A stretch of DNA of 40,932 nucleotides from Zoogloea sp. (GTDB lineage: Bacteria > Pseudomonadota > Gammaproteobacteria > Burkholderiales > Rhodocyclaceae), in NCBI GenBank assembly GCA_023150095.1, contig JAKLLO010000022.1, positions 1 through 40,932 of the forward strand, given 5' to 3'. Positions 3,992 through 29,741 of the stretch are shown in pieces; the stretch's first letter is position 1; each line of letters opens with the position of its first letter. Under the pieces are notes generated by a model. It was given only the letters and a program-made list of their open reading frames with translations, searched no databases and was not told where the DNA came from. The position numbers and the translations under genes were made by a program.

Positions 3992-4513
3992 CTAATGGTT
4001 ATGCGCGCCGGCGAGGCTCTTGATGACTTCCCGCGTCACATCCCCAAACGCCAGCACCTTGCCGCCTTCGGCCTTCACGTGCGCTTCGGCCGCTTCGCGG
4101 CTGGCGAAGGCGGGGAGGTTGGGTTCGTTCATGGGGCCGCGGGCTTTTGATCCGAGGACGTAGAAGGCCTTTTTCGCATCCACCCAGGCTTTGGTGGTGT
4201 AGTCGGCAACCCAGATGGCGCCGATGTCGGCGGGTTTGTGGGTTTTGTCGAAGAGCATCATGTTGCCCACGAAGCGGAACATGTCTGCGGGCGAATCGAA
4301 GCTGCTGGCGGTCTGGTCGTTGAAGACGATCTGGGCCGTCCATTGGGGGGTGCGGTAGGGGTACATGCCGCACACGGGGCAGCGGGTGGAGCGCTGGACG
4401 TATTGGGGCGAGAGATCCGCGGCGCTTGCTGCAATGGGCTGGCCGATGACGAGGACGGCGAGGAGGGCGGGGACGATGGCGGCGGCGAGTGTGGGCAGAA
4501 CGCGGCGGGTCAT
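3992..4513 (-). CDS. NosL-like copper-binding accessory protein (second copy)
   Basis: This is a 173-residue exported protein with a Sec signal (residues 1-31, ending IAASAA). The metal motif RCPVCGMYP (about 43-51) is the Cys-x2-Cys-Gly-Met motif typical of NosL/NosL-like proteins. It is followed by the family's tail pattern (WVDAKKAFYVLGSKARGPM, then FASREAAEAHVKAEGGKVLAF, with VTREVI). NosL binds Cu(I) and supplies it for NosZ CuZ-site assembly. Unlike the other NosL at 5192-5728 it has no lipobox Cys, so it should be soluble in the periplasm or held by its uncleaved leader. It is the last gene of the nosDFYL operon; its ATG overlaps the stop of the preceding gene by 4 nt (ATGA), showing translational coupling. 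The two NosL-like proteins are clearly diverged paralogues. Confidence 0.85.
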   Translation of the reverse strand: MTRRVLPTLAAAIVPALLAVLVIGQPIAASAADLSPQYVQRSTRCPVCGMYPYRTPQWTAQIVFNDQTASSFDSPADMFRFVGNMMLFDKTHKPADIGAIWVADYTTKAWVDAKKAFYVLGSKARGPMNEPNLPAFASREAAEAHVKAEGGKVLAFGDVTREVIKSLAGAHNH

Positions 4514-4881
4514 GGCTGGGCTCCGGGGGTGTTGTCGAGCAGCGGGTCTTGCAGGATGGCGTGGATGACGCGGGTGAGGTTGTCGAGGGGCGCGGCGCCG
4601 CAGTGGGTGAGGGGGTCGGCGCGCAGTTTACCGTCGGCGGTGTGCAGGTGGTTGGGGTAGGTGGGCAGATCCTTGTGGAGCGGGGCGGTGTCGATGCGCA
4701 GTTCGGCGTCGCCCCAGGCCCAGGCGATGGCGTAGGCGTCGGGGGCGGCGATGCGCGCTTCGAGCACCACGCCGTTATCGAGGCGGGCGATGAGGGCGTC
4801 GTACTTGACGTCCACCGGGCTTTCGAGATGTTGGCCGAAGCGCTCGTCGAGGAGCGCGGCAAGGTCGAGATGAAGGCTCAT
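4510..4881 (-). CDS. TumE/DUF6516-like protein inside the nos operon
   Basis: This is a 123-residue cytoplasmic protein with no signal or membrane segment. The central part (YAIAWAWGDAELRIDTAP followed by HKDLPTYPNHLH) resembles the DUF6516/TumE family, in which a strand, an aromatic-rich segment and a xPTxPxHxH block are conserved. TumE is the toxin of the TumE-TumA toxin-antitoxin pair. This copy sits between a 90-residue unknown protein and a NosL-like gene, overlapping the latter by 4 nt, so it is co-translated with nos maturation genes. A metal-linked role of the His-rich segment is conceivable but unproven. The resemblance is by eye and needs a profile search. Confidence 0.6.
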   Translation of the reverse strand: MSLHLDLAALLDERFGQHLESPVDVKYDALIARLDNGVVLEARIAAPDAYAIAWAWGDAELRIDTAPLHKDLPTYPNHLHTADGKLRADPLTHCGAAPLDNLTRVIHAILQDPLLDNTPGAQP

Positions 4882-4908
4882 GGGCGTGGGCGTGGCGGTT
4901 TGCTGGGG

Positions 4909-5181
4909 CTAGACCTGGTTGGCGATCTTGACGCGCTCGGCGAGGTCGGCGCGCACTTCGGCGTGCAGGGTGTCGAGGATGCGGGCGGAGAGGTATTGCT
5001 CGTAGCTGGGGTGCTCGGGCATTTCGCCGCGCACGATGCAGTCGAGGGCCTGGGGGGCATCTGCGGCGCCAAGCTGGGCGAGCAGGGTGTCGCGGGCGCC
5101 GCGCAGTTCGTACATCAGCCGGGCGCATTGTTCGATTTCCTGGGCCTGATCGGCGGGGATGTTGCTGTAGAAGTTGTCCAT
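4909..5181 (-). CDS. Unknown small helical protein in the nos operon
   Basis: This is a 90-residue protein starting MDNFYSNIPADQAQEIEQ. It is rich in helix-forming residues with two single Cys (about 19 and 48) and has no signal peptide, membrane segment or known motif. The ATG at 5181 is used because the frame upstream of it lies antisense-like within the NosL gene and reads as non-protein. It lies 10 nt downstream of the NosL lipoprotein gene and 27 nt upstream of the TumE-like gene, so it is within the operon. It could be the partner of the TumE-like protein. No function is assigned. Confidence 0.6.
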   Translation of the reverse strand: MDNFYSNIPADQAQEIEQCARLMYELRGARDTLLAQLGAADAPQALDCIVRGEMPEHPSYEQYLSARILDTLHAEVRADLAERVKIANQV

Positions 5182-5191
5182 GGCTTGCGGT

Positions 5192-5728
5192 TTACATTCG
5201 CTGGTCGTGGAGGGCGCCGCCATCGAGGCGGGCCATGTCGGCGGTGACTTCGGCAAAAGGATAGACCTTGCCGCCTTCGGCTTGGGCAAACTTTGTGGCG
5301 CCTTCGCGGGTGCCAAACGAGGGGATGGTGGGGCCCATGGCGCCGCGCTTCTTGGAGCCGACCACATAAAAGGCGCTGCGGGCGTCGATCCAGCTGCCCT
5401 TGGGGGCTTCCCAGGGGGTTTTATCCAGATCCTGCACGTAGATGCCGGCGACCTTGCGGGCCTGTTCGGGCTTGAGATAGAGCGAGAACATTTCCATGGT
5501 GTCGCAGAAGAACTCGGGGGCCGTGGCGCCTTCGTAGAGGATCTGCGCCTTGGGGCCGGGGAAGTCGGCGAGGAACATGCCGTCGAGGGCGCAGGCGCTC
5601 TCTTTGGTGATCTCGGTGGGGCCGACGCTGTTGCTGCTCTGTTTGCCGCAGGCGGAGAGCAGGCTGACGGCCACCAGCAGGGCGGCGGTGTGAAGGACGA
5701 GAGGTGGCACGGAGCGGGGCAGTTTCAT
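5192..5728 (-). CDS. nosL: NosL, Cu(I)-binding lipoprotein for nitrous oxide reductase maturation
   Basis: This is a 178-residue protein with a lipoprotein signal: the lipobox LLSAC puts the acylated Cys at residue 26. The metal motif is CALDGM (about 46-51), the variant of the NosL motif in which Met and Cys flank an Asp-Gly. It is followed by FLADFPGPKAQI, a characteristic NosL stretch. The tail pattern WIDARSAFYVVGSKKRGAMGPTIPSFGTREGA and KVYPFAEVT is the family core. NosL delivers Cu(I) to the NosDFY-assisted assembly of the NosZ tetranuclear CuZ site and is anchored in the membrane. Its start codon overlaps the nosY stop by 4 nt, the usual nosY-nosL coupling. By position and lipobox this is the canonical NosL; the copy at 3992-4513 is the extra one. 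Confidence 0.92.
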   Translation of the reverse strand: MKLPRSVPPLVLHTAALLVAVSLLSACGKQSSNSVGPTEITKESACALDGMFLADFPGPKAQILYEGATAPEFFCDTMEMFSLYLKPEQARKVAGIYVQDLDKTPWEAPKGSWIDARSAFYVVGSKKRGAMGPTIPSFGTREGATKFAQAEGGKVYPFAEVTADMARLDGGALHDQRM

Positions 5729-6549
5729 CGTTCAAATCTCCAGATGGCAGCGGCCAGGGGGCCGACGATCCAGGCGAGCATCACGCCGCCAAGGGTAGCG
5801 GGGTGGCTCAGGGCTTCGGGGAAGACGGTGGCAAGGCCGTAGAGGGTGCGCACTTCATCAAGGCTGAACACGTTGAGCACGCGGAACACATCGGCCGGGT
5901 TGAGCAGCAGCAGGTAGGGGAAGACCGCGCCGCCGTAGTCGCCGGCGGTGACCACCAGCGCGCCCAGCAGCAGCAGATCAAACACCAGCACAAAGAAGAA
6001 CCACGTGCCGATGGCGAGGCCCGAGGCGCGGGTGCGATCGCTGGCAAACACAGAGAGCATCACCGCCAGGCTGAGGAAGGCAAAGCCCAGCAGGATGGCC
6101 GAGGCCATGAAGCCGGCGTAGTGGAAGAGGGCGTTGAGATCGAGCTGCGGCGAGAGGATGACGCCCACCGCGCCAAAGCCGGCGATGGTGGAAAACGCCA
6201 GCGCGGCGGCAAGCCCGGCGTATTTGCCGAGGATGAGCTCTTTGCGGGTGATGGGCAGGGTGAGGAGCAGATCGAGCGAACCGCGCTCCCGCTCGCCGAC
6301 GATGGCGTCGAAGCCGAGGATGAGGGCGATGAGCGGGATGAGGTAGATCACCAGGCTGACGAGGGAGGCGATGGTGAGCTCGATGGAGCGGAACCCCACC
6401 GCGCCCTGCTGGGCCGCGCCGAAGTAGGCGATGACGAGGGCGAACACGGTGAACACGATGGCCACCGCCAGCACCCAGCGATTGCGGATGCGATCCCAGA
6501 ATTCCTTGCCGGCGATGATGCCGATCTGTCTGAAGTCGATGGAGAGCAT
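5725..6549 (-). CDS. nosY: NosY, ABC permease for nitrous oxide reductase maturation
   Basis: This is a 274-residue integral membrane protein, close to the usual NosY length of about 276, with about six hydrophobic segments. It begins MLSIDFRQIGIIAGKEFWDRIRNRWVL, as NosY proteins do. The coupling region FDAIVGERERGSLDLLLTLPITRKELILGK is typical of ABC-2 type permeases. NosY pairs with the ATPase NosF and periplasmic NosD to drive copper-sulfur site assembly in NosZ. The ATG at 6549 is chosen from family length. The frame stays open upstream to nosF but reads as low-complexity non-protein there. Oddly, the sequence just upstream of the ATG is pyrimidine-rich and shows no Shine-Dalgarno, and a G-rich segment lies within about 10 nt. 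Confidence 0.93.
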   Translation of the reverse strand: MLSIDFRQIGIIAGKEFWDRIRNRWVLAVAIVFTVFALVIAYFGAAQQGAVGFRSIELTIASLVSLVIYLIPLIALILGFDAIVGERERGSLDLLLTLPITRKELILGKYAGLAAALAFSTIAGFGAVGVILSPQLDLNALFHYAGFMASAILLGFAFLSLAVMLSVFASDRTRASGLAIGTWFFFVLVFDLLLLGALVVTAGDYGGAVFPYLLLLNPADVFRVLNVFSLDEVRTLYGLATVFPEALSHPATLGGVMLAWIVGPLAAAIWRFER

Positions 6550-6709
6550 GGGCTTGATGGGGAGTGGGGGTTGGGTAGTGGGTAGTGGGGGAGCGGAGGG
6601 GCTTGGCCGGGGTTCCGTTTCCTGTGGGCGGTTGGGGAGTGGATAGTGAATGAGTGGGGAAACAGGTGGAGCGGAGAGGCCTGACCTACCTCCTACTCCC
6701 CATTTCCCA
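6550..6709. repeat. Low-complexity spacer with inverted repeats and G-quadruplex-type runs between nosF and nosY
   Basis: On the plus strand, 6559-6591 has five G-runs of three or more separated by 2-4 bases (GGGGAGTGGGGG, then TTGGGTAGTGGG, then TAGTGGGGG). A second GGTTGGGGAGTGG segment follows near 6630-6660. Opposite-sense matches (CTACTCCCCATTTCCCATTACCCATTCTCC-type sequence) lie at about 6690-6720, so the G-rich and C-rich parts could pair. The plus strand is the template strand for the nos operon. No gene lies here. Confidence 0.65.
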
Positions 6710-7630
6710 TTACCCATTCTCCGATCGGTATCCGAAGAACACATCCTCGAGCGACGGTTCGCGCACGTGGAGATCGCGCATGGTGTCGCCGAGGGTGGCG
6801 AGGCGGGTGAGGGCGGGCATCTTGGCTTCGCGGGGCAGGCGGATGTGCAGCACGCTGCCGGCTTCTTCGATGCTTTCGATGGCCATGCCTTCGAGCAGGC
6901 GGGTGACCTGTTCCTTGAGCCCGGCGCCGCCGGCGATCTCGAGGGTGAGGGGCAGATCCATGGCTTCGCGCAGATCCTGCACGGTGCCGGTGGCGCGGAT
7001 GAGGCCGCCTTCCATGATGGCGAGGCGATCCACCCGTTCCTGGATCTCGGCGAGGATGTGGGAGGTGAGCACCATGGTCACGCCCTCGGCTTTCAGCTCG
7101 CGCAGGATGCGGTAGAAGTCGCGGATGGCGCCGGGGTCGAGGCCGGTGGTGGGTTCGTCGAGAAACAGCAGGCGCGGCGTGCCGAGCAATGCCTGGGCAA
7201 AGCCGAGGCGCTGGCGCATCCCCTTGGAGTATTCGCGCACGCGGCGGCCGGCGGCGTGGGAGAGGCCGACCTTCTCGAGCAGGCCGGCGCATTCGCTGCG
7301 CGGCACGGCTTTGAGGTCGGCAAAGAAGAACAGGGTTTCGAGCCCGGTGAGGTTGTCGTAGAGCACGACGTTCTCGGGCAGGTAGCCGATCTTGCGGCGG
7401 GTCTCGCGGAAACGCGGGCCGGTGACGGATTCGCCGTCGAGGCGGATCTGGCCGCGGGTGACGGGGATGAGCCCGAGCATCATCTTGAACAGGGTGCTCT
7501 TGCCGGCGCCGTTGTGGCCGATGAGGCCGAACAGCTCGCCCGGGGCGATGTCGAGATCGACTCCCTTGACGGCCTGAATGGTGCCGAAATCCTTGGTCAC
7601 CCCGCGGGCTTCAACGATAGTGCTTGCCAA
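6710..7630 (-). CDS. nosF: NosF, ABC ATPase for nitrous oxide reductase maturation
   Basis: This is a 306-residue cytoplasmic ATPase. Walker A GHNGAGKST is at about 38-46, the ABC signature is YSKGM (about 133), Walker B is LLFLDEP with the catalytic Glu (about 153-159), and the switch is TSHI. The C-terminal 80 residues form the small NosF-type domain. It powers the NosDFY complex with permease NosY. The start is a TTG at 7630, overlapping the nosD stop by 20 nt; the next in-frame start candidate (GTG of GVTKDF) would remove the first strand of the ABC domain, so TTG is preferred. A 160-nt spacer separates it from nosY, which is unusual for this tightly packed operon. Confidence 0.94.
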   Translation of the reverse strand: MASTIVEARGVTKDFGTIQAVKGVDLDIAPGELFGLIGHNGAGKSTLFKMMLGLIPVTRGQIRLDGESVTGPRFRETRRKIGYLPENVVLYDNLTGLETLFFFADLKAVPRSECAGLLEKVGLSHAAGRRVREYSKGMRQRLGFAQALLGTPRLLFLDEPTTGLDPGAIRDFYRILRELKAEGVTMVLTSHILAEIQERVDRLAIMEGGLIRATGTVQDLREAMDLPLTLEIAGGAGLKEQVTRLLEGMAIESIEEAGSVLHIRLPREAKMPALTRLATLGDTMRDLHVREPSLEDVFFGYRSENG

Positions 7631-8885
7631 GCCAGTTTCTCCAGTCGGAATGTTCGGGGCGCATGCGCGGTTTTGGGTCCACGATGCTGGGTGCGCGCAG
7701 CAGCGGAAACTGCTGGCTGATGAGGCGCAGGGTCTGGATCGCCGGGCTGGCGAGCAGCAGCTTGACCATCGGGTGGCGCCACGAGAGGCGGTCGACCATG
7801 TCGTTGGCTTCGTAGGGCACGTCGCCGATGCCGTCGCCGTTGCGGTCCCAGCCCACGTAGTTGCTCCAGTGGTTGCCGTCCTGCTTGCCCCAGGTCTCGT
7901 CGCGGGCGGCCACGTATTTGACCTGCTCGCGGTTGGAGATGAAGTCGTTCTTCTCGACCACGTTGCGCACCGACCCGGCCCACAGGTGCACGCCCACCTG
8001 GTTATCCACCACCAGGTTGCCCCGCACGGTGTTGTATTCGGCGTCGTAGATGAAGAAGCCGCGGGCGTTGCCGGCCACCACGTTGTTCTCGACGATGGAA
8101 TCCTGGATGGTGCGCAGCATGATGCCGTGGTCGGAATTGCCCCACGCGCGGTTGTTGCGCACGATCTGGTCGCGCACTTCCATCAGCGCGAGGCCGCCGC
8201 GGTTGTAGTAGCTGTCGTTGTCCTCCCACAGGTTGTGGTAGGAGTTCATGTAGTGGCTGCCGTAGCGGGCGTGGTGCAGGCGGTTGCCACGAAATACCGC
8301 GTGGTGGGACACATCCACGTAGAGCGCGTCACGCACGAAGCTCACGTTGTTGCCGATGATCCTGGCGCCGTCGGTGTTGTAGAGCTGGATGCCGTTGCCG
8401 CGCTGGGCGGAGTCGAGATCGCGCTTGCCGGTGATGGTGTTGTGCTCGATGAGCACCTGGTTGGACTTTTCGATCCACAGCCCGAACAGGGTGTAGGTGA
8501 AGGTGCAGCCAGTCACCCGCGCCCGGTGCGCGCCGGGCTGGATGTAGATGCCGGCATTCTGGGCGCCCAGGTCGTCGCCGGAGTCCGCGACGATCACGCC
8601 TTCGATGGCCACGTCGGGCGCGGCCACGCGGATGGTGTCGCCCTTGCCGCCGCCGTCGATGGTCGGGCGGTCGACGCCGACGAGGGTCAGCGGCTTGTCG
8701 ATGCGCAGGTTTCCGAGGTAATGGCCGCGGGCGACGCGCACGGTGTCGCCGGGGGCGGCGCGATTGATGGCGGCCTGGATCGACTCGCCCGGTTTTACAT
8801 CCCAGCTGGCCGCCTGGGCGCCAGCAGCCGTTCCTGCAGCGAGGAGAGCCAGGGCAAGGCGGAGCGGGCGGAAATGAAGGGGCAC
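7611..8885 (-). CDS. nosD: NosD, periplasmic beta-helix copper-site maturation protein
   Basis: This is a 424-residue protein. The signal peptide starts at a GTG (MPLHFRPLRLALALLAAGTAAGAQA, cleavage before ASWD). The body is a right-handed parallel beta-helix of CASH/NosD repeats with regularly spaced Asn-rich turns (RGNRLHHA, VRNNRAWGNS, VENNVVAGNA, VRGNLVVDNQ). The conserved C-terminal block NHWSNYVGWDRNGDGIGDVPYEANDMVDRL is diagnostic of NosD. The open frame reaches 8996, but the GTG at 8885 (or TTG at 8891) fits the signal peptide. An FNR-like box at 8945-8958 and a RegR-like palindrome at 8921-8937 lie just upstream and would otherwise be inside the gene. It is first in the operon nosD-F-Y-L. 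Confidence 0.93.
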   Translation of the reverse strand: MPLHFRPLRLALALLAAGTAAGAQAASWDVKPGESIQAAINRAAPGDTVRVARGHYLGNLRIDKPLTLVGVDRPTIDGGGKGDTIRVAAPDVAIEGVIVADSGDDLGAQNAGIYIQPGAHRARVTGCTFTYTLFGLWIEKSNQVLIEHNTITGKRDLDSAQRGNGIQLYNTDGARIIGNNVSFVRDALYVDVSHHAVFRGNRLHHARYGSHYMNSYHNLWEDNDSYYNRGGLALMEVRDQIVRNNRAWGNSDHGIMLRTIQDSIVENNVVAGNARGFFIYDAEYNTVRGNLVVDNQVGVHLWAGSVRNVVEKNDFISNREQVKYVAARDETWGKQDGNHWSNYVGWDRNGDGIGDVPYEANDMVDRLSWRHPMVKLLLASPAIQTLRLISQQFPLLRAPSIVDPKPRMRPEHSDWRNWLGKHYR

Positions 8886-8920
8886 GGGCAAGGTGTGGGA
8901 AATCCGGTGAGGCTGCAGTG

Positions 8921-8937
8921 TGCGACGCAATGTCGCA
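8921..8937. promoter_or_regulatory. RegA/PrrA/RegR-type palindromic box before nosD
   Basis: The sequence is TGCGAC-GCAAT-GTCGCA. Read on the minus strand the core GCGACATTGCGTCGC fits the RegR box GNGRCRTTNNGNCGC at every position, and the general RegA/PrrA pattern GCGNC-N5-GNCGC. It lies 36 nt upstream of the GTG start. The family of the binding protein is inferred from the consensus; no RegA homologue lies in this window. Confidence 0.6.
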
Positions 8938-8944
8938 GCAAGCC

Positions 8945-8958
8945 TTGATTTGGGTGAA
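8945..8958 (-). promoter_or_regulatory. FNR/DNR-like box before nosD
   Basis: On the minus strand this reads TTCAC-CCAA-ATCAA, 8 of 10 matches to TTGAT-N4-ATCAA. If centred at -41.5, transcription would start near 8910 and leave a 25-nt leader before the GTG at 8885. The -10 at that spacing (CACACT) is poor, so this is a moderate prediction. Confidence 0.45.
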
Positions 8959-9015: not shown

Positions 9016-9514
9016 GTGGGGGCGACTTCAGTCGCCCAGCTGCGCGTTCAGCAATCCTTGGTTCCTGGCTGGGCGTCCGCGGGCGGCTGAAGCCGCCCCC
9101 ACAGGGGCGGGGGCATGTCGGTGTGTCGATTACTGTGGGGGCGACTTCAGTCGCCCAGCTGCGCGTTCAGCAAATCTTGGTTCCCGGCTGGGTGTCCGCG
9201 GGCGGCTGAAGCCGCCCCCACAGGGGCGGGGGCTTGGTGGTGTGCCGCCTTTCGTGGGGGCGACTTCAGTCGCCCAGCGGCGCGTTGAGCAAACCTTGGT
9301 TCCTGGCTGGGCGTCCGCGGGCGGCTGAAGCCGCCCCCACAGGGGCGGGGGCTGGGTGGCGTGCCGCCTTTCGTGGGGGCGACTTCAGTCGCCCAGCTGT
9401 GCGTTCAGCAATCCTTGGTTCCCGGATGGGCGTCCGCGGGCGGCTGAAGCCGCCCCAACAGGGGCGGGGGCTTGGTGGTGTGCCGCCTTTCGTGGGGGCG
9501 ACTTCAGTCGCCCG
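9016..9514. repeat. REP/BIME array: 119-bp unit, four full copies plus a partial fifth
   Basis: Units start at 9016, 9135, 9254, 9373 and 9492, an exact 119-bp period with scattered substitutions. Each unit holds two related perfect palindromes in opposite sense: GGGCGACT-TC-AGTCGCCC at the unit start and GGGCGGCT-GA-AGCCGCCC about 65 nt later (9081, 9200, 9319, 9438). Both are flanked by GTGGGG/CCCCAC tails, as in bacterial REP elements arranged head to head (BIMEs). The last partial unit overlaps the 3' end of the HAD gene. The array fills the space between nosD and the HAD gene; no RAYT transposase is in the window. Confidence 0.9.
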
Positions 9515-11475: not shown

Positions 11476-12864
11476 ATGGCGATGGATCTGCTCAAGTTCG
11501 CACACGAGGTCAAATGGCGGGACGTGTCCTGGTCCGCCTGCACCGGCTGGTTGCGGAGCCTCTCGCTGACCCAGCATCTGCTGCTGCTGGCCCTGACGCC
11601 GCTGCCTTTTCTGCTGGCGGCGTTCTTCATGATGCACCCGGTGGAGCCGAAGCCGTCCCAGGAGCCCGCGAGGCTGGCCCGAGGCGTGGCCTCGGTGCGT
11701 CTGCTTGCCACTGCGGTGGAAGCCGGTGTGTATTTTGGCCGCCCCCAGCAGCTCGAACAGATTGTCGATGCCCTTGGCGGCGCCGACAACGTGACCGCGC
11801 TGGCGATCTACGACCACACTGGCCGTCCGCTGGTGGAGCGGGGCCGGCCGGCGGTCGCCACGCGGGAGCAGGTTCGCGCCGTGCGCGCCGCGAGCTTCAT
11901 CGATGAACGGAGCGGGCGGATGGCCTTTGCCGCACCGGTGATGTCCATGCCGGCCGCCCGCGACGATGGCATCGGCGATGCCTTGTTCACCCTCGTCGAA
12001 CCCCGGGCGGCAGGCTGGGTGCTGCTGGAGTTTGATGCCGCCGCGCCGGTGCCGGCGGATGATCAGCGGTTTCTGCGCCATGCCCTGCTGACGCTGGCTG
12101 CACTGGCGGGCAGCATCTACGTGGCGCTGCGCCTGGGCCACGCCTGGGGTGATCCGATGCTGCGGGTGGCCGACGTGGTGAAGCGCGTGCGTGCCGGACA
12201 GTGGGACGTGCGGCTGAAGGCCGACGTGGCCGGCCGCGAGATGCAGCAGCTGTACGAGGGTATCAACGCGCTGGTCGGCACGCTGGAGGAGACACGCCGC
12301 GCAGTGCAGGCCGGCGCCGATGAAGCCCGGGACCGCTTCGCCTACCAGGCCATGCACGACCACCTCACCGGGCTGCCCAACCGGCGGGCCTTCGACAAGG
12401 CGCTGGACGAGGCCGTGTCGGCGTCGAGGCGGGCTTCCGATCGCTGTGTGCTGTGCTTCATCGACCTCGATTTCTTCAAGGCGGTGAACGATGTCGGCGG
12501 CCATGCAGCCGGTGATGCGCTGCTGCGCGAGGTGGCGAGGCTGATCCAGCAAGGGGTGCGCGTCGGGGATCTGAGCAGCCGTATCGGGGGCGACGAGTTT
12601 GCCCTGCTGCTGCGCGATTGCAGCGCCGACGACGCCCGGCGGATCGCCGAGGGCTTGTGTCATGCGATCTCGGCCCTGCGTTTCCGGTGGGAAGGCCGCG
12701 TGTTTTCCGTGAGCGCCAGCTTCGGGCTGGCCGAGATCGACGCCTCGGTGGAAAGCTGCGCCGCCGCGCTGAAGATTGCCGACGACGCCTGCTACGCCGC
12801 CAAGCGCGAAGGGCGCAATCAGGTCGTGCTGCGTCACGCGGGGAGCCCGGGCCGGGTGGTGTAG
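11476..12864 (+). CDS. Membrane-bound diguanylate cyclase (GGDEF)
   Basis: This is a 462-residue protein. TM1 is at about 31-52 and TM2 at about 200-218, enclosing a periplasmic or extracytoplasmic sensor of about 145 residues. A HAMP-like linker (about 216-270) follows, then a GGDEF domain. The catalytic motif RIGGDEF is intact (GGDEF at 371-375), and the allosteric I-site RVGD lies five residues before it (362-365). The enzyme should make c-di-GMP and be subject to product inhibition. The ATG at 11476 is preceded by GGGAGG at good spacing. It precedes a multi-PAS histidine kinase on the same strand (81-nt gap), suggesting a shared signalling cluster. The sensed ligand is unknown. Confidence 0.9.
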   Translation: MAMDLLKFAHEVKWRDVSWSACTGWLRSLSLTQHLLLLALTPLPFLLAAFFMMHPVEPKPSQEPARLARGVASVRLLATAVEAGVYFGRPQQLEQIVDALGGADNVTALAIYDHTGRPLVERGRPAVATREQVRAVRAASFIDERSGRMAFAAPVMSMPAARDDGIGDALFTLVEPRAAGWVLLEFDAAAPVPADDQRFLRHALLTLAALAGSIYVALRLGHAWGDPMLRVADVVKRVRAGQWDVRLKADVAGREMQQLYEGINALVGTLEETRRAVQAGADEARDRFAYQAMHDHLTGLPNRRAFDKALDEAVSASRRASDRCVLCFIDLDFFKAVNDVGGHAAGDALLREVARLIQQGVRVGDLSSRIGGDEFALLLRDCSADDARRIAEGLCHAISALRFRWEGRVFSVSASFGLAEIDASVESCAAALKIADDACYAAKREGRNQVVLRHAGSPGRVV

Positions 12865-12945
12865 ATCGCGGCCCGCTGGCGCCCGGCGCGATTGCGCACC
12901 ACGGCGGGCGGAACGGCGCGAAAATCCCGCCAAGGCAATCGATGG

Positions 12946-15900
12946 ATGAGTCTAATGGCCGATGACGATAGATGGCGTGACGAGGCGGACGAAGACCCGC
13001 TTCCCCTCGGCGACCTGTGCCGTGAGCTCGACGCGCTGACCACCCGGGAGGCGCAGCTGGAGCTCGAGAACGCCCAGCTGCGGCGCGAACTGATCGGGCT
13101 GGAGGCCGCGCGGGCCAATTACTTCGACTTCTACGAGCTGGCGCCGGTTGGCTTTCTGACCATCGACGAACGGGGCGTGATCCTGCAGGCCAACATCCGG
13201 GCCGCCACGCTGCTGGACGTTCCGATGGGGCGGATCATCGCCCAGCCGGTGGTGAATTTCGTCTGCGAGGGGGATCGGGAGCCTTTCGCCCGCTACTGCC
13301 GGCGTATCTTTGAAACCGCCATGCTGGAAACCTACGAGCTGCGGATGCGCCAGGGTGACGGGCGGCGCGTGTGGGTGCTCGTGGAGGCCGGCGCGGTGAG
13401 GGATTCCGGCGGACAGCCGGTGCTCAACCTGGCGCTCAGCGACATAGGCGAGCGCAAGGAGGCCGAGGCGCTGATGCGCGAGAAGTACGAACTGCAGGCG
13501 CAGCTGACCAAGATCGCCGCGACGGTGCCCGGGGTGATCTGTTCGTTCCGGCTGCGGCCGGACGGCACATCGTGCATGCCCTACGCCAGCGCGGCGCTGG
13601 AGCAGATCTACGGCGTGCGCCCCGAGGAGGTGTGCGAGGACGCGTCGGCGCTGTTTGCGCGGATGCATCCGGGGGATGTGGGCTATGTCCACGAGACGGT
13701 TGCGGCCTCGGCCAGCACCCTGACGGCGTGGCGGGCCGAGTATCGCGTCCTTCATCCCACCAAGGGCGAGCGCTGGGTCGAGGGCCATTCGATGCCCCAG
13801 CGGGAGGCGGATGGCAGCATCCTGTGGCACGGTTTTCTCAGTGACGTGACCGAGCGCAAGCGCATGGAGGCCGCGCTGCGCGACAGCGAGCGGCTGTACC
13901 GCGCCATCGGCGAGTCCATCGACTACGGGGTGTGGGTGTGCGCGCCGGATGGCCGCAACATCTACGCCAGCGAGTCCTTCCTCAAGCTGGTGGGCATGAC
14001 TCAGGCGCAGTGTTCGGATTTCGGGTGGTTCAGCCTGCTGCATCCGGACGATGCCGAGCGCACCCTGGCGCGCTGGATGGAATGCGTCAAGCGGGGTTCG
14101 GTGTGGGATGTGGAGCACCGTTTTCGCGGCGCCGACGGCAACTGGCACGACATCCTGGCGCGGGGCGTGCCGGTGCGCAACGAGCGTGGCGAGATCAGCC
14201 ACTGGGCGGGCATCAACCTCGACATCAGCGGCCTCAAGCAGGTGGAGCAATCCCTGCGCGAGAGCGAGGCGGAGCTGCAGCGCGCCCAGGCCGTGTCGCG
14301 CACGGGCAGCTGGCGGCTGGATCTCGAACGCAACGAGCTGCGCTGGTCCGACGAGAACTACCGCATCTTTGGGGTTCCGAAAGGGGTGCCGCAAACCTAC
14401 GAGACCTTCCTGTCCGTCGTTCACCCGGACGACCGCGAGTTCGTCGACCGCGCCTGGAAGGCGGCGATGAACGGCGCGCCCTACGACGTGGAGCATCGTC
14501 TGGTGGTGGATGGCGAGATCCGCTGGGTGAAGGAGCGCGTCGAGCTGGTGTTCGACGCCGCGGGCAAGCTGGTTGCCGGCATGGGCAGCACCCAGGACAT
14601 CTCCGACAGCAAGCGGGCCGAGGCCGCCCTGGCGGCGAGCGAGTCGCGCTTCCGGCTGGCGATGGAGGCGGTGGCAGGAATGGTCTTCGACTGGGACCGG
14701 GAGAGCGATTCGTTCTACTGCTCGGCGGGTTTCAGCGCGATTTTCGGGCGCGGGACGGAATCCCGGTTCGACCGTCACTGGTGGCAGGCGCGGATTCACC
14801 CGGATGACGCGCGGCGGGTCCGGGAGTCAGTGATGCACTGCCTGAAGCAGCGTTGTGATCGCCTTCAGCTGGAATACCGCCTGTGCAGCGACGACGGGCG
14901 CTGGGTGCATATCTCCGACAGCGTGCGCATCATCCGCGATGCCCGCGGGCGGGTGACGCGGCTGGTGGGCAGCCTGACCGACATCAGCGCCCGCAAGGAG
15001 GTTGAAGCGGCGCTGATGCGCATCAACGATACCCTTGAGGAAAAGGTGGCCGAGCGCACCTTCGAGGCGGAGGAGCGGGCCCGGGCGCTGCTGGAATCCG
15101 AGCGCTTCACTCGGGCCACCATCGACGCGCTCAATTCACCCCTGTGCGTGCTCGATGCGAACGGCGTCATCATCGCGGTCAATCGCGCGTGGCGCGAGTT
15201 TGCGGTGGGCAACGGCGGCGACCCGACGGTGATGAGCGAGGGTGCCAACTACCTGGCGATCTGCGATATGGCCACGCTGGCGGAGTGCTCCGTGGCCGGC
15301 CAGGTGGCGGCCGCCATCCGGAGCGCGGTGGCGGGGTGTCGCGATGATGTGTCGATCGAGTACGAGTGCGCATCGCCCACCGAGCGGCGCTGGTTCGTGC
15401 TCAACCTGAGCTGCTTCCAGGGTGACGGCCCCCTGCGTCTGGTGGCGGTTCACGAGGACATCACCGAGCGCAAGCTGGCGGCCGAAGAGCAGGCCGAGAG
15501 CGCGGCGCGCCTCAAGCGACTTGCGGCCCACCTGGAAACCGTGCGCGAGGAGCAGAACACGACGATTGCCCGTGAGGTGCACGACGAACTCGGAGGCACC
15601 CTGACCATGCTCAAACTCGGGCTGGCCACCACGGTGGACGGCCTGGCGCTGCCGGCGTCCACCCAGGCGCGCTTCGACCGACTGCTGGAACAGGTGGATT
15701 CGGCGCTCAAGACGGTCAAGCGCATCTCCGCCGGGCTGCGCCCTGCGATGCTCGACACGCTGGGGCTGATTGCGACGGTCAAATGGTACGCGGCGGACTT
15801 TTCGCGCATGACGGGCATCGCCATCGACGTGCGGATGCCGGAACGTCTGACGCTTTCCGCGGTCCGTAATACGGCGGTGTTCCGCATCGTCCAGGAAGCG

Positions 15901-16194
15901 CTGACCAATGTGGCCCGGCACGCCGAGGCCACCCGAGCCTCCATCGTGATGGAGATTCAGCACGGCATGCTGGACGTCGAAGTGCGGGACAATGGAATAG
16001 GGCTCGCCGACAGCGAGCGCGATAAATTGGATTCCTTCGGTCTGATCGGAATGCAGGAGCGGGCCCAGTATCTCGGTGGCTGGTTGTCGATCAGCAGCGA
16101 ACCGGGGGCGGGCACCAGTCTGACCCTGCACATTCCGCTCGAAGACTGGGCCGAAGGCTGGAGAGCAGTTGATGGCGAGCGTGTTGATCGTTGA
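12946..16194 (+). CDS. Soluble six-PAS NarL-family sensor histidine kinase
   Basis: This is a protein of about 1082 residues with no membrane segment. A short N-terminal coiled coil (EAQLELENAQLRRELIGLEAAR) leads into about six PAS domains, several ending in the PAC-type DIS/ER motif (DIGERKEAE, DVTERKRME, DISGLKQVE, DISDSKRAE, DISARKEVE, DITERKLAA). The kinase core is HisKA_3: the phosphoacceptor is His879 in REVHDELGG, and the ATPase N/G1 motifs include DNGIGL near 1015 and the final GAGTSL. This is the NarX/DegS-type family that pairs with NarL/FixJ regulators. It overlaps the next gene by 23 nt, so the two are a pair. The ATG at 12946 or 12955 may be used; no clear ribosome binding site decides. 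PAS cofactors cannot be told. Confidence 0.88.
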   Translation: MSLMADDDRWRDEADEDPLPLGDLCRELDALTTREAQLELENAQLRRELIGLEAARANYFDFYELAPVGFLTIDERGVILQANIRAATLLDVPMGRIIAQPVVNFVCEGDREPFARYCRRIFETAMLETYELRMRQGDGRRVWVLVEAGAVRDSGGQPVLNLALSDIGERKEAEALMREKYELQAQLTKIAATVPGVICSFRLRPDGTSCMPYASAALEQIYGVRPEEVCEDASALFARMHPGDVGYVHETVAASASTLTAWRAEYRVLHPTKGERWVEGHSMPQREADGSILWHGFLSDVTERKRMEAALRDSERLYRAIGESIDYGVWVCAPDGRNIYASESFLKLVGMTQAQCSDFGWFSLLHPDDAERTLARWMECVKRGSVWDVEHRFRGADGNWHDILARGVPVRNERGEISHWAGINLDISGLKQVEQSLRESEAELQRAQAVSRTGSWRLDLERNELRWSDENYRIFGVPKGVPQTYETFLSVVHPDDREFVDRAWKAAMNGAPYDVEHRLVVDGEIRWVKERVELVFDAAGKLVAGMGSTQDISDSKRAEAALAASESRFRLAMEAVAGMVFDWDRESDSFYCSAGFSAIFGRGTESRFDRHWWQARIHPDDARRVRESVMHCLKQRCDRLQLEYRLCSDDGRWVHISDSVRIIRDARGRVTRLVGSLTDISARKEVEAALMRINDTLEEKVAERTFEAEERARALLESERFTRATIDALNSPLCVLDANGVIIAVNRAWREFAVGNGGDPTVMSEGANYLAICDMATLAECSVAGQVAAAIRSAVAGCRDDVSIEYECASPTERRWFVLNLSCFQGDGPLRLVAVHEDITERKLAAEEQAESAARLKRLAAHLETVREEQNTTIAREVHDELGGTLTMLKLGLATTVDGLALPASTQARFDRLLEQVDSALKTVKRISAGLRPAMLDTLGLIATVKWYAADFSRMTGIAIDVRMPERLTLSAVRNTAVFRIVQEALTNVARHAEATRASIVMEIQHGMLDVEVRDNGIGLADSERDKLDSFGLIGMQERAQYLGGWLSISSEPGAGTSLTLHIPLEDWAEGWRAVDGERVDR

Positions 16195-16801
16195 TGACCA
16201 TGCCGTGGTACGGGGTGGACTGAGACAGTTTCTGGCGGATACCGACGACCTGGAGATCACGGCCGAGGCGGCGTCGGGGCATGAGGCGATTGCGTTGGCG
16301 GAGAAGGGCGACTGGAGCCTGGTGTTGCTCGACATTGCCCTGCCGGACGTCAACGGGCTGGAGGTGCTCAAGCAGATCAAGCGCCTGCGCCCGAGCCTCC
16401 CGGTGCTGATCTTCAGCATGTTCTCGGAGGACGAGTTCGCGATCCCATCCCTCGAGGCGGGCGCGTCGGGCTTCCTCAATAAGGACAGCCCGCCCAACCA
16501 GATCCTCACCGCGATCCGCACGGTGGTGGGCGGCGCCCGCTACCTGAGCCCGACGCTGGCCGAGAAGCTGCTGGCGGGGGTGGCGCCCGTCGGGCGCAAG
16601 CTCGCCCACGAGGCGCTGTCGCGCCGCGAGACCGAGGTGCTGCTGATGCTCAGCAAGGGCACCTCGCTCACCCGCATCGGCGAGATCCTGCACGTGAGCG
16701 TGAAGACGGTGAGCACCTATCGGGCGCGCATCATCGAGAAGCTCGGCGTCCAGTCGAACGCCGAACTCACCCGCTACGTGATCGAACACCGCCTCGGCTG
16801 A
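16172..16801 (+). CDS. NarL/FixJ-family response regulator
   Basis: This is a 209-residue protein. The receiver domain has the acidic pair DD near residue 8-9, phosphoacceptor Asp54 in LVLLDIALP, the switch Ser in IFSMFS and Lys in LNKDSPP. The C-terminal LuxR-type helix-turn-helix (about 148-205) includes LSRRETEVLLMLSKG and the recognition helix VKTVSTYRARI. It should be phosphorylated by the overlapping multi-PAS kinase and then bind DNA. The start used is ATG 16172; a TTG at 16169 adds one residue. The overlap of 23 nt with the kinase gene indicates coupling. The target genes are unknown; nitrate-type sensing cannot be claimed. Confidence 0.9.
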   Translation: MASVLIVDDHAVVRGGLRQFLADTDDLEITAEAASGHEAIALAEKGDWSLVLLDIALPDVNGLEVLKQIKRLRPSLPVLIFSMFSEDEFAIPSLEAGASGFLNKDSPPNQILTAIRTVVGGARYLSPTLAEKLLAGVAPVGRKLAHEALSRRETEVLLMLSKGTSLTRIGEILHVSVKTVSTYRARIIEKLGVQSNAELTRYVIEHRLG

Positions 16802-21755: not shown

Positions 21756-22178
21756 TTACACCTGCACGATGCCCAGCGTGCGCAGCCCGATGAACAGCGC
21801 GGCGCCGATCAGCAGGTTCTTGAAGCTCACGTAGCAGATCATGTCCATCACCGTGGCGCGGCGATACAGATGGCCCCACCACGGGCCTTCCTTCACATAC
21901 GGTTTGGCGTCGAGGCGGACGATCACCTCGAAGACACTCCAGCCGAACCACCAGCCGATGATCGCGCCGGCTTCCAGGCGGCCCATGGCGGCCATCACCC
22001 AGGCGACGGTGGCGGCGAGCGCCAGCGCGAAGCCTGCGCCCTGGATGGCCTTGCGGGCCGGCTGGCCGCGGCCGGCCCAGGGCCACAGGTGATCCCACAT
22101 CTCGGCGGCGAGCCAGGCGATGCCGTGGGCTTCGCCGTAGGCGGGCTGGCGCAGTTCGTTGCGGTCGGCGATGGTCAT
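21756..22178 (-). CDS. Small membrane protein coupled to nosR
   Basis: This is a 140-residue protein. The N-terminal 45 residues are polar and Trp-rich (AWLAAEMWDHLWPWAGRG). About three hydrophobic segments follow (about 50-68, 75-90 and 112-135). No domain name comes to mind. The ATG overlaps the nosR stop by 4 nt (ATGA), showing tight translational coupling. I suspect it is a NosR-associated membrane component found in related denitrifiers, but I cannot confirm that. Its roles could include anchoring or electron-transfer assembly for NosR. The stop is 49 nt from arfB. Confidence 0.65.
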   Translation of the reverse strand: MTIADRNELRQPAYGEAHGIAWLAAEMWDHLWPWAGRGQPARKAIQGAGFALALAATVAWVMAAMGRLEAGAIIGWWFGWSVFEVIVRLDAKPYVKEGPWWGHLYRRATVMDMICYVSFKNLLIGAALFIGLRTLGIVQV

Positions 22179-24385
22179 GCTGCGGTTCCTTCCTTCTTCT
22201 TGTCGACCGGGGCGGGGTGGATGGGGATGAAATAGCCCTTGCCGTCGATGGGCGTGAGCGGCTGGCCGGCCTTGGTGCGGCGCTTGCGTTCCTGGGCGAG
22301 CGGCGGGCAGGCGTGATCGTCGTAGTAGAACACCATGCAATCCAGGCACAGCATGCACTCGCGCTGGTCGATGTTGCCCTTGGCGTCGATGGCCAGCGAG
22401 CCGCAGCCCTTGGCGCAGGCCTTGCAGCTGGTGCATTCGTCCTTACGCTTGAGGCCGAACCAGCGGAAGGTGGTGGGCATGGCGAGCGCAGCGCCCAGCG
22501 GGCACAGATACTTGCAGAACGGCCGCTCGACGAAGATCGCCAGGCCCAGCAGGCTGGCGGCAAACAGGCTGTAAGGCCAGCTGCGGTTGGTGATGCCGAC
22601 GAGGAAGGTGGTCTTGAAGGGCTCGATCTCGGCGAGCTTCTCGGCCAGCCCCATGCTGAAGAAAGACACCGCCAGCAGGCCGAAGAACACCACGTACTTC
22701 ACCCACTTGAGCTTGTCGTGGAGCGCCTGGGGCAGGTGGCGCTGGAAGCGCTTGAGGCCGACCGCCTGACCCACTTTGTAGAGCAGCTCCGACAGCGACC
22801 CGAACGGGCACAGCCAGCCGCAGAAGAAGCCGCGACCCCACACGAAGGTGGTGACGATGATGAAGATCCAGAACACGAAGATCAGCGGGTCGGACAGGAA
22901 CAGCTCCCACTTCCACTGGAACAGCAGCGAGTGGAACCAGGTGAGCACCTGGGTGATGGAGGGCTGGGCCATGGCGTAGAAGCCGACGAAGCCGATGGAC
23001 AGCACCCAGCCGGTGTACTTGAAGGCATTCACCGGCCACTTGTTCTTGTGGGTCGAGCGGCGCACCAGCTTGTCGCGGCTGGCGTAGGCGGCCGAGAGGG
23101 CGAGCAGGAAGACGATGAAGCCGGCGATCTCGACCTTGCGCTCCTTCCACACCTTGAGCCAGGTCGGATCAGGCTTGACCACCACCGGACGGCCGCCTTC
23201 CAGGTATTTGTCGGCGAGCCAGTATTCCTTGTCGAAGTTGGCGAAGGTCTTGGCGGCGGTTTCCTTGTCGATCTTGTTGCCGAGGAACACCAGCTTCCAC
23301 GGGAAGGCGCCGGAGAAGCTCTTGCCGCGGATGATGAAGATCGCCGATTCGTCGAAGGCAGGCGCACCAGCGGCGGAGACGCCCCACAGGTTGACGTAGT
23401 CCAGATCGCGGAAGGTGAAGCCGTCGCCGCCCTGGCGCACCTGCACGCGGTCGTAGATGCCGCCGCGCACGAAGCCGGAGCCCTTGAACGAATCCATGCC
23501 GCCCGTCTTGACGATGAAGATGGCGTGCTCGCCTTCCTTCAGGCGGCTCATCAGGCCGGCGTAGCCGGTCTTGCCGAGGATGGCTTCGCCGATGGTCGGC
23601 TGGTTGAGGTAGCCGAACCACAGATCCATGTAAGGCCGGCCGTCGCTCTTGAGACCGACCTCCTCGGGCTTAACGGTGAGACGCTGGACGCTGCCGTCTT
23701 CCACCAGCTGCGCCCAGCTCGGCGAGGCCGCGGCGGCGGGCGGGAACTTGGCCTGGGGCCGGATCACCGGCTTGAGTATGCCGACCTGCTTGGCCACCTC
23801 GCCGCCGGAGACCATCATCACCTGGTTCTGGGCGATCACGGTGACGGTGGCGCCGGTGATGGCGTCGAGGCCGATCAGGTTTTCCTCGGGGCGCGACTTG
23901 CCGATCTCGATGTTGTCGCCGACGAACTTGCCCAGGTACTGGTTGTTGAACTTGATGAGCGCCGATTCGGGGATGCCCAGCAGCAGGATGGGCTCGGAGT
24001 GCTTGAGGATCTTGACGCCGGCAAACTTGCCGGCGGTGTCCATGCCGATCAGGGTGACCACCGGCTTGCCGGAGTACGCCGGCGTGTCGGTGATGTCGGT
24101 GGACAGCATCACGTAGCCGATCAGCTTCTTCTGGCCGGCTTCGTCGGCGTAGGCCTCGACGAAGGGCGGCTGGCCCTTGCGTTCCGAGAAGCTGGTGGCG
24201 CCGGGCATCACGTCCTTGCACGGGGCGTAGTCGCACATCTTCGGCGAGGAGGTGAGCTCGGGCGGGAGCTTGACTTCATAGGTGTCGGCCAGGGCGCTGC
24301 CGGTGAGCGTCAGGGCTGCGAGGCCGGCGGTGATGCGGGCTGTGAAACGTGGGGCGAGGGTGCGCAGGGCGCGCAGGGAAATCAT
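22175..24385 (-). CDS. nosR: NosR, flavoprotein/iron-sulfur membrane protein for N2O reduction
   Basis: This is a 736-residue protein. A signal peptide (MISLRALRTLAPRFTARIT... SALA) opens it. A periplasmic FMN-binding domain follows with the flavin-attachment motif GATVT (about 180). The membrane core has several helices from about 415 and two CxxxCP motifs (CGWLCPFG, CKYLCPLG). The C-terminus has two 4Fe-4S clusters (CTSCKACAKGC and CMLCLDC). NosR supplies electrons to NosZ and is needed for nos expression in Pseudomonas. ATG 24385 is preferred; GGAG lies about 7 nt upstream, and the longer frame from a TTG at 24400 adds five residues. It follows nosZ after a terminator, so it likely has its own promoter (24445-24458). 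Confidence 0.95.
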   Translation of the reverse strand: MISLRALRTLAPRFTARITAGLAALTLTGSALADTYEVKLPPELTSSPKMCDYAPCKDVMPGATSFSERKGQPPFVEAYADEAGQKKLIGYVMLSTDITDTPAYSGKPVVTLIGMDTAGKFAGVKILKHSEPILLLGIPESALIKFNNQYLGKFVGDNIEIGKSRPEENLIGLDAITGATVTVIAQNQVMMVSGGEVAKQVGILKPVIRPQAKFPPAAAASPSWAQLVEDGSVQRLTVKPEEVGLKSDGRPYMDLWFGYLNQPTIGEAILGKTGYAGLMSRLKEGEHAIFIVKTGGMDSFKGSGFVRGGIYDRVQVRQGGDGFTFRDLDYVNLWGVSAAGAPAFDESAIFIIRGKSFSGAFPWKLVFLGNKIDKETAAKTFANFDKEYWLADKYLEGGRPVVVKPDPTWLKVWKERKVEIAGFIVFLLALSAAYASRDKLVRRSTHKNKWPVNAFKYTGWVLSIGFVGFYAMAQPSITQVLTWFHSLLFQWKWELFLSDPLIFVFWIFIIVTTFVWGRGFFCGWLCPFGSLSELLYKVGQAVGLKRFQRHLPQALHDKLKWVKYVVFFGLLAVSFFSMGLAEKLAEIEPFKTTFLVGITNRSWPYSLFAASLLGLAIFVERPFCKYLCPLGAALAMPTTFRWFGLKRKDECTSCKACAKGCGSLAIDAKGNIDQRECMLCLDCMVFYYDDHACPPLAQERKRRTKAGQPLTPIDGKGYFIPIHPAPVDKKKEGTAA

Positions 24386-24444
24386 CGGGTGACTCCACAA
24401 ATCAGTATGTGACCGGATTCTGATGATTGGGCCCGGGGGGCGCC

Positions 24445-26632: not shown

Positions 26633-26653
26633 GCTGCGACAATCTGTCGCAGC
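26633..26653. promoter_or_regulatory. Perfect 9-bp palindrome (RegA/RegR-like) at the predicted nosZ start point
   Basis: Arms GCTGCGACA and TGTCGCAGC flank ATC. The core TGCGAC-N5-GTCGCA has the same length and arms as the nosD site at 8921-8937. It fits GCGNC-N5-GNCGC, with one mismatch to the RegR box GNGRCRTTNNGNCGC. It overlaps the predicted transcription start (about 26649), so it may be an operator or a 5'-end hairpin in the mRNA. Confidence 0.6.
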
Positions 26654-26655
26654 GC

Positions 26656-26697
26656 ACTCTAGGGATGTGGAGACGGAAAAAAATTGATTGAAGGCAA
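26656..26697 (-). promoter_or_regulatory. FNR/DNR-dependent promoter of nosZ
   Basis: On the minus strand TTGCC-TTCA-ATCAA (26697-26684) matches 8 of 10 positions of TTGAT-N4-ATCAA. A -10 TAGAGT (26661-26656, 4 of 6) sits exactly where a box centred at -41.5 requires it, giving a start near 26649. This is the classic class II layout for FNR/DNR activators. Confidence 0.6.
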
Positions 26698-28915: not shown

Positions 28916-29069
28916 CTAAATGAGCGCGCCAGTCTGGTGCCAACAGGTGACCATGCCCGTGCGTCATTCGGAGACCCTCAAGTTTGCTTTATACTTGGCC
29001 GCTAATAGCTCATGACAACTTGGTCACATCGCCAAGAAACATTTTAGCCCTTTGCTCAGGAGAGGCCCT

Positions 29070-29741
29070 ATGACCGTTACCAGCTCCGTGTCCACAATTG
29101 CCCTGCGTACCTTCCCCATCTTCCAGGGGCTGGGCGATGACCGGCTGGCTGCCGTCGCGCGCTGCGCGATGATGCGACGGGTTCCGCGGGGGTCCGCGGT
29201 GGTACATGAAGGTGATCGCACCGATTTCGTCTATTTCGTTCTTACCGGCAACCTGAAGGTCATGGTCAGCGACGAGGATGGTCGCGAAGTGATCCTGACG
29301 ATTCTCGGTCAGGGCGAGATGTTCGGCGAGATGGGCGTGCTCGATGACAGCCCGCGCTCGGCCTCGGTCGTGGCGGTGTCGCCGTCCGATCTGGTCACCA
29401 TCGCGAAGACCGATTTCAAGCGTCTCATGCAGGAGAACTTCGAGCTTGCGTGGCACGTCATGTGCAACCTCACCCGCCGCCTGCGCGACGCCGACCGCAA
29501 GATCGAAAGCCTGGCGCTGATGGATGTGTACGGCCGCGTGGCGCGCCTGCTCCTCGAGATGTCCGAGGAAGTGGACGGCCTCAAGGTGGTTCGCAAGAAA
29601 GTGTCCAAGCAGGACATCGCCAAGATGATCGGCGCTTCCCGCGAGATGGTCAGCCGGGTCATGAAGGATCTCGGCCTGCGTGGCCTGATCGAGGAAACCG
29701 ACAGCGGCGTGATCCTGCGCGAGAAAATTTACGATTTGTGA
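29070..29741 (+). CDS. Crp/Fnr-family transcription regulator (CRP-like)
   Basis: This is a 223-residue protein. The N-terminal cyclic-nucleotide-binding domain has GEMFGEMGVLDDSPRSASV, keeping the Gly-Glu and Arg-Ser of the phosphate-binding cassette. A central dimer helix follows, then a helix-turn-helix with recognition helix SREMVSRVMKDL. It resembles E. coli CRP's SRETVGRIL, implying TGTGA-type sites, not TTGAT. The N-terminal Cys cluster of FNR is absent. At the positions of CRP Thr127/Ser128, which contact adenine, the sequence reads Ala/Asp, so the effector may not be cAMP. The ATG at 29070 has GGAGAGG upstream. A terminator at 29817 follows it. Confidence 0.85.
   Translation: MTVTSSVSTIALRTFPIFQGLGDDRLAAVARCAMMRRVPRGSAVVHEGDRTDFVYFVLTGNLKVMVSDEDGREVILTILGQGEMFGEMGVLDDSPRSASVVAVSPSDLVTIAKTDFKRLMQENFELAWHVMCNLTRRLRDADRKIESLALMDVYGRVARLLLEMSEEVDGLKVVRKKVSKQDIAKMIGASREMVSRVMKDLGLRGLIEETDSGVILREKIYDL

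Follow-up and report, generated by a model that had tools for sequence, protein, structure and literature searches.

What ties two nos promoters of a Zoogloea genome to one palindrome, which regulator would bind there, and would the binding turn nitrous oxide reduction on or off? The window, which is the whole 40,932-nucleotide stretch of Zoogloea sp. DNA analysed here, carries TGCGAC-N5-GTCGCA at 8921-8937, before nosD, and at 26635-26651, before nosZ, where the initial annotation had located both copies. N2O is a greenhouse gas, N2O reductase is its main known biological sink, and copper limits this enzyme. The reading that we prefer, with a probability of about 0.65, is a RegBA-type copper-economy switch, in which the box would be a RegA-type operator, serving to switch copper uptake on and to hold copper enzymes down.

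The nos promoters of the window

The genes and promoter parts concerned are these:

24598-26547, minus strand: nosZ (nitrous oxide reductase, clade I), start ATG 26547
22175-24400, minus strand: probable nosR, downstream of nosZ, with Fer4_5 and FMN_bind domains; adjoins nosZ in relatives
26635-26651, minus strand: nosZ box, upstream of nosZ; minus-strand reading TGCGACAGATTGTCGCA
26656-26661, minus strand: putative -10 of nosZ (TAGAGT), ending 4 nt before the box
26684-26697, minus strand: FNR-like site TTGCC-N4-ATCAA, upstream of nosZ, 22 nt before the -10
7611-8891, minus strand: nosD (TIGR04247, 459 bits against a cut-off of 300)
3992-7630, minus strand: nosF, nosY, two NosL-domain genes and a small conserved ORF, downstream of nosD
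8921-8937, minus strand: nosD box, upstream of nosD; minus-strand reading TGCGACATTGCGTCGCA
8917-8922, minus strand: putative weak -10 of nosD (CACACT), overlapping the box edge
8945-8958, minus strand: FNR-like site TTCAC-N4-ATCAA, upstream of the nosD box

The genes nosF and nosY were named from their position and from ABC-transporter matches, and the -10 of nosD was placed by analogy with the spacing from the FNR-like site to the -10 at nosZ. The nosD frame is open from 8996 and its longest version would enclose the box; the start is more likely TTG 8891 or GTG 8885, just before a signal-peptide-like stretch, and the box would therefore lie upstream of nosD. An FNR-like site is found upstream of both boxes, which agrees with the earlier proposal that an FNR/DNR-type activator acts alongside. 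The FNR/DNR consensus is TTGAT-N4-ATCAA, which the box itself, by inspection, does not fit.

Several other features of the window were recorded. Just upstream of the nosD promoter, positions 9016-9513 hold a 119-base unit repeated in tandem 4.2 times (92% matches), and this unit contains two inverted repeats, GGGCGACTTCAGTCGCCC and GGGCGGCTGAAGCCGCCC. The small ORF of the nos cluster (4510-4881, 123 aa) is present in 32 of the 67 nosZ loci described below; its sole Pfam match, TumE, falls below the cut-off, and it is therefore probably an unnamed nos-cluster protein. Between nosR and nosD (11476-16801) are encoded a diguanylate cyclase, an 1100-aa multi-PAS histidine kinase and a NarL/GacA-like response regulator, and imperfect 21/42-base tandem repeats with GACGTC cores occupy 40631-40811.

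A scan of the whole assembly (5,041,592 bases in 317 contigs, 88.8% complete, 5.9% contamination), which had been suggested as a check, returned the two perfect copies of TGCGAC-N5-GTCGCA and no third. The reversed control pattern likewise has two copies, so that the box count is no more than chance and was discarded as evidence. What is non-random is that both copies stand at nos promoters and that they are conserved there. The nosD copy, read on the minus strand, fits the published RegR consensus GNGRCRTTNNGNCGC without a mismatch and the nosZ copy departs from it at one position, exactly as claimed; with up to one mismatch allowed, this degenerate pattern has 7 matches in the window versus a mean of 8.2 in shuffles, and being no rarer than in shuffles it is uninformative when taken alone. 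A third near-copy of the box, TGCGACACTGTGTCGAA, with one mismatch, was noticed at 2246-2262; it precedes by about 117 nt the ATG at 2380 of a gene for a putative secreted protein, which has no Pfam match, and no homologue of this gene was found in the 67 nosZ loci.

Conservation of the box in relatives

With the NosZ of the window as query we collected 67 loci from the species-genome collection, the nearest named relatives being Zoogloea (90-92% identical), and scanned 450 upstream bases in 64 of them (L063, L074 and L077 were left out). The box was present with at most two mismatches in 29 of the 64 loci, 26 of these having at most one, and its position relative to the beginning of the tblastn match ranged from -61 to -171; one further row, L062, with two mismatches at the different position of -204, was dropped before this count. 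The box-bearing loci include six of Zoogloea type (three named Zoogloea and three MAGs with NosZ 90-91% identical), Thiobacillus and Hydrogenophilales, Cognatazoarcus, Azoarcus sp. L1K30 and others. Within the 450 bases the box was not found in Polaromonas, Rhodoferax, Ralstonia or Paraburkholderia loci, nor, the dropped row aside, in the Massilia/Duganella group.

Before nosD, the 12-base pattern was found with at most one mismatch in six of seven Zoogloea-type genomes, the seventh site (L137) being CGCGGCATTGCGCCGCA with three mismatches, and against a stricter 14-base pattern the nosD copies show one to four mismatches. The ATCAA half of the FNR-like site and its exact 7-nt distance to the box are kept in all seven genomes. 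The comparison of nos promoters that had been proposed thus finds conservation at both nosZ and nosD, and the box is real and conserved and, by these comparative criteria, functional.

Box targets beyond nos

The nosZ sites sharpen the motif to TGCGACA-N3-TGTCGCA, a rigid 7-3-7 palindrome common to several genera, and this pattern was sought in two sets of genomes. In 200 genomes of the order (own genome included; G189 looks like a repeat of G017) the exact 14-base box has 77 sites in 46 genomes, compared to 11 sites for the reversed control. In a 19-genome set, made up of 18 of the 29 box-positive nosZ genomes and the own genome, 71 sites with at most one mismatch compare to 44 for the reversed pattern, an excess of just 1.6-fold.

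The neighbours of 58 of these 71 sites were examined, as was the DNA around 70 order-wide loci. Besides nosZ, the genes that follow the box in the 19-genome set include DUF2244-COX2 (aa3 oxidase) operons of Thiobacillus and genes for TonB receptors, PCuAC chaperones, MbnP and RegB-type kinases, and at SCO the box is situated inside a neighbouring ORF; overall its neighbours include OprC-type and other TonB receptors, PCuAC, CopC, NosL, the aa3 oxidase and both nosZ clades. A regulator dedicated to nos, one of the candidates considered, was rejected on the discovery of these other targets.

By phmmer, 34 of the 69 order-wide loci that have an ORF beside the box and 28 of 58 loci of the 19-genome set show a copper, respiratory or regB neighbour, versus 0 of 38 reversed-control loci (drawn from the 44 sites), with the qualification that the reference proteins were taken from both box sets and from the window, so that self-matches count. 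When the reference loci are removed, 28 of 63 order-wide loci still have such a neighbour (p 1e-7), and when the nosZ loci are removed as well, 11 of 41 do in the 19-genome set (p 5e-4); the genomes are related, and these p-values overstate their independence. A Pfam count of 117 order-wide ORFs, which is free of self-matches, gave 17 Plug, 10 HATPase_c, 3 PCuAC, 3 NosL, 3 TonB_C, 2 PepSY_TM, 2 nos_propeller and single CopC, SCO1 and DUF1775 matches, none of them being among the 25 most frequent families in the 65 control ORFs (34 control families are rarer than these). Copper is the common theme of the recognised targets, and at roughly half of the box loci no copper neighbour was recognised. 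An association of this palindrome with copper genes was not recognised in the literature at the level of titles and the openings of abstracts, a coverage that leaves out most subscription journals.

A TonB copper receptor gene of the own genome (TIGR01778, 698 bits against a cut-off of 472) is preceded by a one-mismatch box; the own cox and PCuAC promoters carry the weak copies TGCGTCAAAAAGTCGCA and TGCGACCTTTTGCCGCA, which at two mismatches each are hints.

Two groups of loci were noted besides. Zoogloea-type cox operons (L320:557, L321:550 and L322:2667) have a variant box, TGCGTC-A5-GTCGCA or -GACGCA, with two or three mismatches and a fixed place shortly before the first gene. Predicted outer-membrane proteins that start with CGxxFC or CACGCG lie behind the box at L114:1509-2456, L174:520-1440 and L176:1582-2592; some such proteins are encoded beside regBA, and we regard them as candidate copper-uptake proteins.

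A RegA-type regulator accompanies the box

Having a motif and a set of targets, we looked for a RegA/RoxR homologue, as the initial annotation had advised, and the own genome encodes one clear RegA-type regulator (180 aa) in a shared operon behind a RegB-like kinase (409 aa). The alignment of this RegA with 3rqi covers residues 6-178, and that with 1umq covers 127-176, the HTH. It scores 184 bits where the NCBIfam equivalog cut-off is 250, and the RegB scores 195 where it is 350; the RegA cut-off was reached in none of the 200 genomes, and for this reason the proteins are named RegA-type and RegB-type here and not as equivalogs. The quinone motif of the own RegB reads GGATNPL and not GGxxNPF.

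Of the 46 genomes with an exact box among the 200, 43 carry RegA, versus 45 of the 154 others (Fisher p 1e-15, the relatedness of the genomes applying here too). Exactly one RegA at E <= 1e-40 was found in 18 of the 19 genomes, all box-positive, versus 11 of 31 box-negative nosZ genomes (31 of 35 were checked). The one genome of the 19 without a RegA, G012, has a box-positive nosZ.

Box and regulator genes are also linked on the chromosome. The regBA locus has a box in 14 of 18 genomes at up to two mismatches and in 7 of 18 at up to one, mostly near genes for PCuAC, an outer-membrane protein or a TonB receptor, and by coordinates an exact box lies within 2.5 kb of the RegA gene in 16 of the 46 box genomes (G198, whose RegA is below threshold, was counted by reading of the locus). 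In L132 and L096 the box occupies the gap that separates regB from a divergent TonB receptor or PCuAC gene. Three Zoogloea-type regBA loci, own genome included, and the short L193 locus gave no box at up to two mismatches. A box at the own regBA promoter was considered and rejected, the best copy having three mismatches; this promoter also holds TGTCGCA and TGCGACA as half sites separated by 8 bases. From co-occurrence and linkage, the RegA-type regulator is the best-supported binder of the box, and the binding itself we infer.

Two promoter architectures

Transcription starts were predicted throughout from TAnnnT hexamers, and they place the box in two quite different positions. In 29 of 30 box-bearing nosZ promoters the gap from the end of such a hexamer to the box that follows is 4-7 nt (background 5.7%), and with a -10 at this distance the predicted start falls in the box. 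The hexamer likewise precedes the box with a gap of 5 at clade II nosZ (L189 and L250) and with a gap of 1 in eight cox operons of Thiobacillus type. The order-wide analysis covered 72 distinct sites, and here a hexamer starts 22-23 nt after the box in 42 of 144 orientations, compared to 5 or fewer at any other downstream offset to 59; a -10 at this distance puts the centre of the box near -44. Genes behind the sites of this second class include TonB receptors, PCuAC, CopC, NosL, YcnI-like proteins, outer-membrane proteins with CGxxFC, and RegB. A hexamer 1-7 nt before the box, combined with the absence of one at 22-23, characterises 20 oriented sites, of which 8 are nosZ, 8 cox and 4 neither; the L089 nosZ site has both hexamers.

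The second class is not equally clear everywhere. In the 19-genome set, many sites of which are orthologues, there is no sharp peak at 22-23 (10 matches, with 7 at offset 46), and the Zoogloea-type uptake genes deviate, their likely -10 lying about 54 nt downstream (L109 and L102) or about 39 nt (PCuAC). Repression at nosZ and nosD is suggested by the geometry of the box there, and it is the weakest step of the argument. The split between uptake genes with a box placed for activation and copper enzymes with a box placed to block the start is the basis of the copper-economy reading.

A proposed copper-economy switch and its alternatives

In the mechanism that we propose, a RegA-type response regulator of the RegB/RegA, PrrB/PrrA and RoxS/RoxR family would bind the palindrome. 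When the respiratory chain is backed up or copper is short, a signal that we infer, RegB would phosphorylate RegA. Phosphorylated RegA would activate from a box mostly centred near -44 at OprC-type and other TonB receptors, PCuAC, CopC, NosL, the CGxxFC proteins and regB, and it would repress from a box over the start at nosZ of clades I and II and at the aa3 oxidase operon of Thiobacillus, promoters otherwise activated by FNR; at nosD the box would cover the core promoter. Copper would thus be brought in while NosZ and NosD are held back, the sign at each promoter being a prediction.

A more specific version makes the RegBA-type system the betaproteobacterial regulator of copper starvation, acting through the strict palindrome and shutting off N2O reduction at low copper, and this we hold at somewhat less than even odds. 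The same tentative standing, a little under an even chance, attaches to its details, with import and chaperone genes activated from about -44 and both nosZ clades and the aa3 oxidase repressed over the start.

Precedents point in both directions, as far as the accessible parts of the sources extend. P. aeruginosa RoxSR represses the coxB promoter and is active in a strain without four oxidases (PMC5436846), and R. capsulatus RegA binds copper (PMC9147068); we count the repression and the copper binding in favour of the copper-economy reading. NosA/OprC supplies copper to NosZ (PMC7558416). In B. cenocepacia, RoxS activates cio-1 and cyd, and the aa3 cta genes are RoxS-independent (PMC11742914), the latter a point against the reading. 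RegA and FNR control nosZ positively in Burkholderia pseudomallei (PMC8191878), and in B. japonicum, where the boxes are imperfect and differently spaced, nos is under positive control by RegR, which binds the nosR promoter (PMC4064962). These positive effects in two other groups are the main evidence against repression here, although the two Paraburkholderia nosZ loci of this study have no box.

The alternative that survives best, although we think it unlikely, is that a RegA-type regulator binds the box as an ordinary respiratory redox system, that copper genes are among the targets only because respiration includes copper proteins, and that the regulator may activate nosZ. Apart from the B. 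pseudomallei result, it can draw on the sensing of the quinone pool by RegB through GGxxNPF (PMC8191878, in the part available), a motif present in the L132 RegB as GGYSNPF. Against it, many targets are genes specific to copper uptake or copper chaperones (TIGR01778, PCuAC, CopC, NosL) and not a cross-section of respiration, and the box lies downstream of the -10 at nosZ and cox. This is also where the original proposal, that a redox two-component system jointly controls nosZ and nosD, has to be divided. Its joint control through a two-component system is upheld by the shared conserved box, the RegBA pair and the co-occurrence and linkage of box and regBA in relatives; control by redox alone fits poorly with a reconstructed regulon centred on copper uptake and copper enzymes, and with a box placed to block the nos promoters and not to activate them.

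Less probable again is a different copper regulator whose genes co-occur with regBA by chance. The palindrome is more rigid than published RegA boxes, and in the three Zoogloea-type genomes examined regBA is unlinked to it, both of which would suit such a regulator. The linkage elsewhere (14 of 18 and 16 of 46) and the RegA in 43 of 46 box genomes argue against it, as does the RegA-less G012, whose four one-mismatch boxes were placed inside ORFs by a crude caller that also put some likely real sites inside ORFs.

We see very little chance that the palindrome folds as RNA into a hairpin at the 5' end of nosZ transcripts, controlling stability or translation. The predicted nosZ transcript starts within or at the box and could begin with a short stem. 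However, several single changes at nosZ break this stem while others keep a G-U pair, and boxes of the activator class lie upstream of the predicted -10 and would be untranscribed from that promoter; a structured 5' leader was rejected for the latter reason. That the box is bound by the NarL/GacA-like regulator (16169-16801) or the CRP/FNR regulator (29052-29741) of the window is scarcely credible despite their location near the nos genes, and both were dismissed because their distribution does not follow that of the box, homologues of the kinase and of the response regulator (at least 38% identity) occurring in L011 and L012 only among the 67 loci with flanks of up to 10 kb, and the CRP gene in the six Zoogloea-type loci only, whereas the box spans Thiobacillus and others.

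Relation to known systems and implications

The proposed switch shares with RegB/RegA, PrrB/PrrA, RegS/RegR and RoxS/RoxR the GCGNC/GNCGC half sites, a RegA-type HTH regulator with a RegB-type kinase, and the control of terminal oxidases and nos, including the repression of an A-type oxidase as described for RoxSR in the available part of PMC5436846. It differs in having a rigid 7-3-7 palindrome across genera, copper uptake genes among the main targets, an operator over the nosZ start, and protein scores below the NCBIfam equivalog cut-offs. As far as the accessible text of PMC5506826 goes, binding motifs of RegA, PrrA and RegR are degenerate and differ from one species to the next, At. ferrooxidans yielded no such motif, and RegA of that organism binds mostly upstream of the -35; both the degeneracy and this binding position count against the present reading. 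OprC/CueR of Pseudomonas and the CruR upstream ORF of Bordetella also control TonB copper receptors, but they belong to another regulator class, and no such palindrome appears in the available parts of PMC7558416 and PMC12914433.

In its action the switch would resemble metal-sparing regulation. Fur/RyhB and Zur are switches of this type, turning metal uptake on and metal-using enzymes down, and the system proposed here would do the same for copper with a two-component system instead of a metal-binding repressor.

Should a defined operator couple nosZ to copper uptake by way of a RegBA-type system, there would be a directly testable account of the conditions under which these denitrifiers release N2O, and a rigid 17-base palindrome in two promoter architectures would make the regulons of the RegA family readable from sequence.
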